Below are positions 34,246 to 36,933 of a stretch of DNA of 64,000 nt, in pieces. Each line of letters opens with the position of its first letter. The stretch's first letter is position 1. The DNA comes from Sulfurimonas sp. HSL-1656 (GTDB taxonomy: Bacteria; Campylobacterota; Campylobacteria; Campylobacterales; Sulfurimonadaceae): positions 1,302,001 to 1,366,000 of the forward strand of contig NZ_CP147915.1 of the NCBI RefSeq assembly GCF_039645585.1. Reading direction: 5' to 3'. Position numbers and translations under genes: made by a program. The notes beneath the pieces are model-generated. The model was given only the letters and a program-made list of their open reading frames with translations. It did not search any database and was not told the origin of the DNA.

Positions 34246-34437
34246 ACAGGTCCTTTTTCTTTTGCCATAGTGTAACAAAACTCCGTTCAAACCAGGCATA
34301 GGTATCACACTATCTAAAGATCAAAAATACCAATTAGAAATATTATTTCGCAGTATCTTTTAATTAATAAAGTCCTATAGTTAAATGCAGATGTCCACCC
34401 TCGCCGGTCGGACAGAAACAGGAGGAGGAACAAAACA

Positions 34438-36831
34438 ATGAGCACGGAGCTGATCAGACTGCCCGTCGTCGTCATCAAGGTCGCCGATGACGACGGCTCG
34501 CACTATGCAGGCGACGCATTTTCAGACGACACGGTCAGGGCGCTGATCGAGGACACCAATGCCATCTACGAACCCGATGTGGGGATCCGGCTGATTTTGC
34601 AGAAGATCAGCACCCTCAACAACACGCTGATCAACCGTGTGGCGGACTGGAGCATGGAGTGCCCCGATGCGGAGGCGACGATCCCGCACCCTGACCCTGC
34701 TTTCGCCGGTTACCGCCTGAGCCCTTCGCAGCATGCGGCCTACAGCTATGCGGCCAAACACTACCCCGACAAGATCGTCATTTACGTCCGCCGCCGGACC
34801 GCCGTCAGGGTACTCGTCGATTCGGGTTACCCCAAACCACTTGACGGGAACTGGCCCGGACTCCCCGCCGCGTTCAAGCAGGGGATCGACGCCGCCCTGC
34901 TTCGGCAGGACAACGGCAAGATCTACCTCTTCAAAGGAAGCGAATACGTCCGGTTTTCCAGCGTCGGCGCCGGCGTCGATCCGGGCTACCCCAAGCCCAT
35001 CGCCAACCACTGGCCGGGCCTCCCGGCTTCCTTTCAACAGGGCATCGATGCCGCGCTGTGGCGGGAGAGTAACAGCTGCGTGTACCTCTTCAAAGGGAGC
35101 GAATACGTCCGTTTCACAAACGTCAGTGCCGGCGTCGACCCGGGATACCCGAAAAAGATTGCCGACCACTGGCCGGGCCTTCCGCCCGCCTTCCGGCAGG
35201 AGATCGATGCCGCGCTCTACTACAAACCCACCGGACAGATCTATTTTTTCAAAAATGACGAATACGTCCGCTTCTCCAGCGTCAGTGCAGGCGTGGACGC
35301 CGGCTACCCGCAGGCCATCAAAAACAACTGGCGCGGTCTCCCGGAGGTATTTGAGCAGGGTATCCAGGCGGCCCTCTGGCGGGAGAGCAACGGCTGTACC
35401 TACCTCTTCAAAAACGGCGAGTATGTCCGGTACTCGAAGGCGTGCGACATCGTCGACGAAGGCGGCGGCGGTTTCTCGCACAAAGATATGAATTTTGTCG
35501 CACTGAGCCCATGGGCGGCGACGGGTACGCTGGGCGTCATGGTCTACGCCGGCGGCCCCACCCCCGCCCAGGCGCCCCACGTCTTCCTGGCCCATGAGCT
35601 CGGCCACTATTTCGACCTGACCCATACCATGCGCAACGACTCCCCCGAAACAATGGCCGTCGCGATGCAGCAGCTCGACGACTACTGCCGGCAGCACTAT
35701 CCCGACCCCAAAAACGTCCCCGAAAACATCGCGGACCTCGTTTGGGATATGGACACCCTGACGGATACCTCAGGCGATCCGGGCGCCACACTGTACATGC
35801 AGGCGCTCTTCGGTACAGACCTGCCATCCGCCACCGCCAATCCCTGTATCGGCGCGGGCGAGTTCACCGTCCACTCGGACTACTGCGGCAGGGATTTTAC
35901 CGCGACACCGCCGCGCGACAACGTGATGAGCTACACGGCGCAATGCCCCTATCTCCCCGGCAACACCACCGGGCAGACGCGGGCACGGATTACGCCGCAG
36001 CAGCGGGCCATCATCCACGCGTCGCTGAAAACCTGGCGCAAAAACCTGCAGCAGCTGCCGGCGGGCCATGACCGCTACAACGCCGTCTGGATCAAGTCGA
36101 ACGAGGACCGTCCCGTCGTCTGGGCCTGGAAACGGGCCGACTTCGACAAGCTGAAAAAAGAGTATGATGCAAAAGGGTTCCGCCTGGATGAGCTCAACGC
36201 CTTTGTCCTGCCCGGCGGCGAGGTGCGCTACAACGCCGTCTGGATCAAATCGCACGAGGATCGGCCCGCCGTCTGGGCATGGAAACGCGCCGACTTCGAC
36301 AAACTGTACACCGAGTACTACGCAAAGGGGTACCGGTTGGCGTCGCTCAACGCCTTCATGCTCTCCGACGGCATTGAGCGCTTCAACGCCATCTGGATCA
36401 AATCGCACGAAGACCGCCCTGCGGTCTGGGCCTGGAAACGTGCCGATTTCGATAAGCTCTACGCCGAGTACCATGAGAAAGGGTTCCGCCTGATCGATCT
36501 CAATACGTTCGTCTACCCGGGCGGAGAGGAGCGCTACAACGCCGTCTGGATCAAATCGGACGACGACAGGCCCGCCGTCTGGGCCTGGAAGCGGGCCGAC
36601 TTCGACAAGCTGTACACCGAGTATGACACGAAAGGGTACCGTCCGGAACGCCTCAACACTTTTCTCGGCGCCGACGGCGAACTGCGCTACAACGCCCTCT
36701 GGGTCAAATCCGGGGGCAGCAGCAGAAAGGCCCTGTGGGAGTGGGTACGCTGGGACTTCGAGAGCCGCCACGACACGCTGCACGCCAAGGGCTACCGCCT
36801 CTACCGTCTGGGCTGCAGCGTCCTGCCCTAG
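34438..36831 (+). CDS. Metzincin-like metalloprotease with hemopexin-type repeats and a tandem-repeat tail
   Basis: The 797-residue protein starts behind AGGAGGAGG. Residues 1-118 look like the first half of a metallopeptidase domain. Residues 119-335 hold four hemopexin-like repeats (YLFKGSEYVRFS..GVDPGYPKPI..HWPGLP, each about 50 residues). The zinc motif HELGHYFDLTH follows at 386-396, with a Met-turn-like NVMSYT at 495-500. Residues 546-797 are five repeats of about 52 residues with the core RYNAVWIKS..DRPAVWAWKRADFDKLY, resembling the bacterial tandem repeat domain family. No signal peptide is evident, so export would need a non-classical route. Hemopexin repeats inside a protease domain are highly unusual. 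Confidence 0.8.
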   Translation: MSTELIRLPVVVIKVADDDGSHYAGDAFSDDTVRALIEDTNAIYEPDVGIRLILQKISTLNNTLINRVADWSMECPDAEATIPHPDPAFAGYRLSPSQHAAYSYAAKHYPDKIVIYVRRRTAVRVLVDSGYPKPLDGNWPGLPAAFKQGIDAALLRQDNGKIYLFKGSEYVRFSSVGAGVDPGYPKPIANHWPGLPASFQQGIDAALWRESNSCVYLFKGSEYVRFTNVSAGVDPGYPKKIADHWPGLPPAFRQEIDAALYYKPTGQIYFFKNDEYVRFSSVSAGVDAGYPQAIKNNWRGLPEVFEQGIQAALWRESNGCTYLFKNGEYVRYSKACDIVDEGGGGFSHKDMNFVALSPWAATGTLGVMVYAGGPTPAQAPHVFLAHELGHYFDLTHTMRNDSPETMAVAMQQLDDYCRQHYPDPKNVPENIADLVWDMDTLTDTSGDPGATLYMQALFGTDLPSATANPCIGAGEFTVHSDYCGRDFTATPPRDNVMSYTAQCPYLPGNTTGQTRARITPQQRAIIHASLKTWRKNLQQLPAGHDRYNAVWIKSNEDRPVVWAWKRADFDKLKKEYDAKGFRLDELNAFVLPGGEVRYNAVWIKSHEDRPAVWAWKRADFDKLYTEYYAKGYRLASLNAFMLSDGIERFNAIWIKSHEDRPAVWAWKRADFDKLYAEYHEKGFRLIDLNTFVYPGGEERYNAVWIKSDDDRPAVWAWKRADFDKLYTEYDTKGYRPERLNTFLGADGELRYNALWVKSGGSSRKALWEWVRWDFESRHDTLHAKGYRLYRLGCSVLP
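36073..36828 (+). repeat. Five tandem ~156-bp coding repeats
   Basis: The 3' third of the protease gene is made of direct repeats about 156 bases long, each coding for one 52-residue unit. The central units are nearly identical in protein and similar in DNA (for example at 36227, 36383 and 36533), while the last has diverged. Such DNA can expand or contract by recombination. Confidence 0.75.
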
Positions 36832-36845
36832 CCGCCTTCTTCAAT

Positions 36846-36874
36846 GGCGCAGGTTACCTGCAGACACCTGCGCC
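36846..36874 (+). terminator. Likely terminator of the protease gene
   Basis: GGCGCAGGT and ACCTGCGCC form a perfect 9-bp stem around an 11-base loop, 15 bases past the stop codon, followed by pyrimidine-rich CTTCTTGTT. The U-tract is interrupted. Confidence 0.6.
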
Positions 36875-36933
36875 CTTCTTGTTAATTGCCTTTTAAACGC
36901 TATGCTTTGCTCTTAAGATGCCAAAGGACGGAA

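Follow-up and report, generated by a model that had tools for sequence, protein, structure and literature searches.

Gene and domain organization

In the analysed window, a stretch of 64,000 nucleotides from Sulfurimonas sp. HSL-1656 (NZ_CP147915.1, positions 1,302,001 to 1,366,000), positions 34438-36831 of the forward strand form one intact open reading frame of 797 codons, preceded by a strong ribosome-binding site (Table 1). The first-pass annotation had given its coordinates and motif positions exactly, with HELGHYFDLTH at residues 386-396 and NVMSYT at residues 495-500. The gene is present in a single copy in its own genome (G000), and its codon-position GC is close to that of its neighbours. 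A full-length orthologue with 95% identity is held by a genome of the same genus, G036, which represents a sister species. By reading, we found no signal peptide, in agreement with the earlier annotation: the ATG stands directly after AGGAGGAGG, with the first strand beginning at residue 6. With this strand so close to the start, there is no prosegment either. From our analyses, we conclude with very high confidence that the gene encodes one pappalysin-like metzincin domain (residues 1-121 and 339-545) with a four-unit hemopexin-type domain inside it (residues 122-338) and a five-repeat BTRD1 domain behind it.

Table 1. Features of the metzincin-hemopexin gene and its surroundings, in positions of the window.
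Feature	Position	Strand	Evidence
Whole gene, 797 aa	34438..36831	+	ORF; 95% identical full-length orthologue in G036; dN/dS 0.097
Ribosome-binding site AGGAGGAGG, 9 nt upstream of ATG	34420..34428	+	Read from sequence
Segment present in G000 and G036, missing at the equivalent site in G010 and G027	34292..36933	+	blastn against L062, L063 and L064
N-terminal half of metzincin domain (residues 1-121): first strand, backing helix, strands to DKIVIYVR	34438..34800	+	Profile 5-97 = residues 6-118, 25.2 bits, shuffle maximum 5.0
Inserted hemopexin-type domain, probably four-blade (residues 122-338)	34801..35451	+	Four PF00045 stretches (E 2.7e-48); PDB matches to MMP-14 and vitronectin hemopexin domains
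Hemopexin unit 1 (residues 127-179)	34816..34974	+	53-residue period
Hemopexin unit 2 (residues 180-232)	34975..35133	+	53-residue period
Hemopexin unit 3 (residues 233-285)	35134..35292	+	53-residue period
Hemopexin unit 4 (residues 286-338)	35293..35451	+	53-residue period
C-terminal half of metzincin domain (residues 339-545): GGGGFS strand (probable upper rim), zinc helix, Met-turn, C-terminal helix	35452..36072	+	Profile 105-265 = residues 325-536, 76.3 bits
Zinc motif HELGHYFDLTH (H386, E387, H390, H396; D393 for Gly)	35593..35625	+	A, HE, GHY, L and H columns invariant in family alignment
Met-turn NVMSYT (M497), with pappalysin-type Tyr two residues on (Y499)	35920..35937	+	N, M, S and Y invariant in family alignment
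Five-repeat BTRD1 (polyglycine-hydrolase-like) tail (residues 546-797)	36073..36831	+	PF17660, E 1.1e-28; five repeats
Weak terminator-like hairpin 3' of the gene	36859..36872	+	Consensus match only

The four units of the insert follow each other with an exact period of 53 residues and share 49-70% protein identity. The earlier view that the repeats at residues 119-335 are hemopexin-like holds: they match PF00045 in four stretches, and their best relatives in the PDB are the hemopexin domains of MMP-14 (4.9e-25) and vitronectin (3e-18). Bacterial hemopexin proteins of Streptomyces and Nostoc match the insert at 41-45%. By homology, the units probably form a closed four-blade propeller. The hemopexin repeat as modelled in Pfam starts near residue 150, and the insert starts earlier; its first residues are the last part of a repeat (AVRVLVDSGYPKPLDGNWPGLP) and its final ones the first part of one (GIQAALWRESNGCTYLFKNGEYVRYS), a register in which one blade appears to be built from both ends of the insert. 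Ends that jointly complete one blade would lie side by side, as insertion in a loop requires, and the propeller would thereby fit in a loop without disrupting the sheet, probably standing beside the active-site cleft. A TCGTCGA repeat in the DNA at both ends of the insert was dismissed as too short to mean anything. Between the two orthologues, dS is 0.35 in the propeller (34816-35451) and 0.11 in the adjacent N-terminal catalytic half (34438-34800); the higher value could reflect recombination among the propeller repeats.

The first-pass annotation had noted an added five-unit repeat tail. The five repeats are present, but the tail is the known domain BTRD1 (PF17660), which already occurs elsewhere on this type of protease: BTRD1-tailed metzincins of the same catalytic family are found in several phyla, likewise without signal peptides. 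BTRD1 is a closed five-repeat EHEE domain, as solved in a fungal polyglycine hydrolase (PMC9912923), and by analogy the tail described here would be closed as well. A small tree places the protein beside the relative L009 (support 0.82), outside the tailed clade; the BTRD1 tail may thus have been joined to these proteases more than once.

An interrupted metzincin domain

The division of the catalytic domain was recognized with a family profile built from nine uninterrupted relatives, the window sequence being excluded. The profile matches residues 6-118 (profile positions 5-97) and then residues 325-536 (profile positions 105-265), in consecutive order; residues 325-338, at the start of the second match, are the weakly aligned end of the propeller. 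The N-terminal half scores 25.2 bits, compared with 5.0 bits for the best of 2000 shuffled N-terminal halves, which bears out the earlier claim that residues 1-118 are the start of the zinc-motif catalytic domain. Joined without the propeller, the two halves reach 97.8 bits, whereas separately they give 76.3 and 19.7 bits. In Pfam, all metzincin matches of the unspliced protein are sub-threshold. Removal of residues ~122-338 lifts Reprolysin_3 from 19.0 to 22.5 bits, Reprolysin_4 from 20.5 to 23.7 bits and Reprolysin_5 from 21.3 to 24.2 bits, so that two of the three pass their cut-offs, and Reprolysin_3 is then matched end to end (profile positions 4-123), crossing the junction.

The same catalytic domain is unbroken in the relatives L008, L009, L011, L005-L007 and L022. 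The reading that the hemopexin units merely lie N-terminal to a complete catalytic domain, residues 1-118 being an unrelated domain, finds some footing in the lack of a Pfam family match for these residues alone (best DUF5902, E 0.1), but it is refuted by their score on the family profile and would leave the catalytic domain without the first strands and backing helix found in every relative; we consider it extremely improbable.

An AlphaFold2 model of the L008 domain, with the window halves in the alignment, shows a metzincin fold (pLDDT 75, pTM 0.79). The insertion point falls in its low-confidence loop at ~100-108, between strands 93-99 and 118-122. A full-length AlphaFold2 model of the window protein itself (seven sequences) had a pLDDT of 52, and of ~30 in the propeller, too poor to show packing. 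The insert occupies a surface loop between the strands DKIVIYVR and GGGGFS, the latter being, by comparison with matrix metalloproteinases (MMPs) and pappalysins, the probable upper-rim strand of the active-site cleft, along which the substrate would lie. Together, the window-independent profile, the contiguous relatives and the structure model of the family support the earlier proposal of a hemopexin insert within one metzincin domain. The length of the loop that follows the DKIVIYVR-equivalent strand differs among the relatives, ranging from almost nothing (L011) to ~25 residues (L005-L007, L021 and L022). A conserved aromatic NWFAYPPxTGQ loop was observed exactly at the propeller site in BTRD1-tailed metzincins of other phyla (L005:3676-5238, L007, L021 and L022).

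Catalytic site and fold class

The metzincin-type active site proposed earlier was confirmed in its three His residues, its catalytic Glu (HExxHxxxxxH) and its Met-turn, with one correction: at position 8 of the zinc motif, Asp393 replaces the usual Gly in both orthologues. This Gly is near-invariant in the metzincin zinc motif and is no zinc ligand. The substitution therefore breaks the strict metzincin consensus and leaves the ligand set intact. A distant relative, L010, likewise has Asp at this position.

The elements of the metzincin fold (sheet, backing helix, active-site helix and C-terminal helix) are present in the model of the L008 domain, which is that of a relative and not of the window protein. 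When this model was aligned with solved structures using VIA-align, mirolysin and ulilysin came first (Z 16.7 to 16.1), pappalysins including PAPP-A spanned Z 16.7 to 14, and snake-venom and ADAM proteases followed just behind (Z up to 14.6). The residues D439 and T444, which come after the zinc motif and are invariant in the family, have the D-x4-T spacing of the pappalysin calcium site and mark a putative site of this kind. Pfam Peptidase_M43 scores 14.1 bits, and 15.7 bits after splicing, below its cut-off of 23. Because of this sub-threshold score, the missing prosegment and the Gly to Asp substitution, we call the domain pappalysin-like and not a member of M43. No match to Peptidase_M10 was found in Pfam up to an E value of 1, and the cysteine-switch PRCG is absent. 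As judged from the model, the catalytic fold is closest to that of the pappalysins (ulilysin, mirolysin and PAPP-A) and not to that of the MMPs; the comparison with MMPs made in the first-pass annotation thus stands for the hemopexin module, but not for the catalytic domain.

Distribution and evolution

The gene was found in two of 397 genomes of its own phylum, namely the window genome and that of the sister species, and PF00045 in one of 150 genomes sampled from the phylum, so that the architecture is as unexpected there as had been remarked. Two complete congeners (G010 and G027) have an empty site, with the flanking genes side by side and ~107 bp between the flanking homologies. Presence in two sister species and an empty site in two congeners constitute a single-gene presence/absence difference; from the rarity of the gene, we infer gain of a single gene rather than loss.

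A scan of genome contigs (at least 589 stretches; query widened with short hand-written zinc-motif fragments) revealed relatives in Pyrinomonadaceae, Microlunatus, Micropruina, Anaerolineae, a deltaproteobacterium and Armatimonadetes, the domain being unbroken in all of them among the matches listed. Further relatives of the unbroken family came from the phylum of the deltaproteobacterium. In samples of 195, 346, 251 and 247 genomes from four further phyla, searched with the family profile for the best candidates per genome, a few family relatives were found. The search for the same domain order in other genomes, suggested earlier, thus met unbroken relatives but no hemopexin-interrupted copy beyond those of the window genome and its sister in a non-exhaustive sample of ~1,440 genomes from five phyla; among the loci fetched, hemopexin-like repeats were confined to these two genomes. 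Viral contigs scanned with the catalytic half, the widened zinc motif and the propeller yielded no relatives, nor did phage records. Plasmid records yielded hemopexin proteins only, and nothing convincing for the spliced catalytic domain. No conserved gene neighbourhood was seen among the relatives. In a literature search limited to open-licence papers, we met no report of a hemopexin domain inside a metzincin domain.

By the Nei-Gojobori method, the dN/dS of the orthologue pair is 0.097 over the whole gene, with 0.064 and 0.052 for the N- and C-terminal catalytic halves, 0.113 for the propeller and 0.107 for the tail. This pattern indicates a functional gene under purifying selection, the binding modules of which change faster than the catalytic core.

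Two other loci of the same genome, both outside the window, are recorded here. At G000:C1:1432913-1434385 (-) (L071/L072), a 490-aa ORF encodes a phage tail sheath (PF04984, PF17482) fused in frame to the active-site domain of an O6-methylguanine-DNA methyltransferase (PF01035, residues 391-472), with an orthologue in G036 (L073). No other tail genes were evident beside it among the listed ORFs over ~19 kb, of which only the sheath ORF itself was domain-scanned. At the same locus, with the same neighbours, the congeners G010 and G027 match the methyltransferase part only (~107 residues); an existing gene therefore apparently gained ~383 sheath codons at its front. At G000:C1:1427903-1430215 (-) lies a tandem array of four small lipoprotein-like genes that resemble each other (193-215 aa), with an SGCWNxDT start and the motif GIDSNNDGVRDD.

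Proposed function

With its catalytic set complete and conserved, the protein is likely to be an active protease. The overall best explanation, which we consider about evenly balanced between right and wrong, is that the protein is an active zinc endopeptidase and that its propeller recruits or gates the substrate. The propeller would serve as an exosite or lid in the selection or positioning of protein substrates, and the BTRD1 domain would be a second, separate binding module. The role of the propeller as exosite or gate, drawn from analogy, is put forward tentatively, and any particular place of action is doubtful. Since there is no prosegment, latency, if any, would need another source: the propeller, the supply of calcium or zinc, or location. 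The earlier suggestion of a self-maturing enzyme finds no support, as there is no prosegment and the tail is a standard domain.

For a leaderless metzincin with several cysteines, no route out of the cell is evident. One alternative is an intracellular protease that would attack proteins of the bacterium itself or of invaders, its targets being selected by the propeller. No signal peptide is present and no secretion gene adjoins, and the tailed proteins of other phyla likewise begin right at their first strand (MAQMYTIHVHAIPL, MAMAYTIRIHAIPL, MATTYTIRIHAIPL and MAVTYTIRIHAIPL), whereas the untailed relatives L008 and L009 have lipoprotein-like leaders. However, those pappalysins that have been characterised are extracellular, depend on calcium and are stabilised by disulfides (PMC11674741, PMC9579167), Cys470 and Cys503 form an apparent conserved pair in the tailed relatives, and no defence model of PADLOC matches. 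On balance, an intracellular role is rather unlikely.

Loss of protease activity, leaving a binding protein on a dead metzincin scaffold, would agree with the substitution D393 in both orthologues and with the two large binding modules of the protein. Against it stand the retention of all three His, the Glu, the Met-turn Met and the Tyr, the catalytic halves as the slowest-changing parts (dN/dS 0.05-0.06) and the same Asp in the distant relative L010, and we regard it as improbable.

The first-pass annotation had also considered an exported weapon or a symbiosis factor, taken here as delivered by a dedicated secretion machine. The presence or absence of a single gene, its patchy distribution and the faster evolution of the hemopexin part are in line with this, but no immunity, toxin, adaptor or secretion gene adjoins the protease gene, and the type VI sheath protein TssB was found neither in the window genome nor in four congeners; a weak TssB hit falls in an ABC-transporter ATPase gene. 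The sole contractile-sheath gene found, common to G000 and G036, is the orphan fused to a DNA-repair domain, and a contractile injection system was therefore rejected as delivery route; the two genomes being sisters, the shared distribution of sheath and protease is no evidence. Both suggestions are thus set aside as very improbable. Hardly credible is an animal-type MMP gained by horizontal transfer and then rearranged: animal MMP and vitronectin hemopexin domains are the best PDB matches of the propeller, but the PDB is rich in animal proteins, the bacterial hemopexin proteins named above match it at 41-45%, and the catalytic domain has neither a Peptidase_M10 match nor the cysteine-switch PRCG.

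Comparison with known proteases

The active zinc endopeptidase proposed here resembles the pappalysin family M43B (ulilysin, mirolysin, PAPP-A and cytophagalysin), which provides the closest solved folds to the family model. It shares with them a Tyr two residues past the Met-turn Met (Y499), a pappalysin criterion (PMC11674741), and its D439 and T444, spaced as D-x4-T, lie at the position of a putative calcium site. It differs in the Gly to Asp substitution of the zinc motif, in its low Pfam M43 score and in the missing prosegment, which in unicellular pappalysins carries a cysteine switch. The catalytic domain of PAPP-A carries two inserted LNR modules, which lie above the cleft (PMC9579167), and in pappalysins the loop of LNR type interrupts the second strand (PMC11674741). 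The protein described here likewise has a domain inserted in its catalytic domain, but this is a hemopexin propeller, not LNR, and it lies at another loop.

With the MMPs (M10A), the protein shares a metzincin and a hemopexin domain, here too probably of four blades, in one chain. In MMPs, however, the hemopexin domain follows the catalytic domain, whereas here it lies inside, in a protein with no M10 match and no cysteine switch. MMP-2 and MMP-9 have inserted fibronectin type II modules, an analogous design. The uninterrupted BTRD1-tailed bacterial metzincins (L005, L006, L007 and L022) share the catalytic family, the lack of a signal peptide and the PF17660 tail, with five repeats in the complete ones, but they have no hemopexin domain and carry the NWFAYPPxTGQ loop of ~20-25 residues at the place of the insert. 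The BTRD1 domain of fungal polyglycine hydrolase also has five EHEE repeats in one barrel-like domain (PMC9912923), but precedes a beta-lactamase-like protease, whereas here BTRD1 follows the metzincin.

Inserted domains are already known in metzincins, as in PAPP-A, and what is new is the arrangement of known parts. We think it possible, though unlikely, that a bacterial lineage independently reached the hemopexin-coupled metzincin of the animal MMP design by means of a propeller in a loop beside the substrate cleft, which would directly gate the enzyme without prosegment or signal peptide. The protein appears to be a natural example of a whole beta-propeller within an enzyme domain, at a site unlike those of the inserts in PAPP-A, MMP-2 and MMP-9. 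With the uninterrupted relatives as ready controls, the influence of a hemopexin module on metzincin specificity could be tested cleanly in it. It also shows that the pairing of metzincin and hemopexin domains arose on a pappalysin-like scaffold in bacteria.
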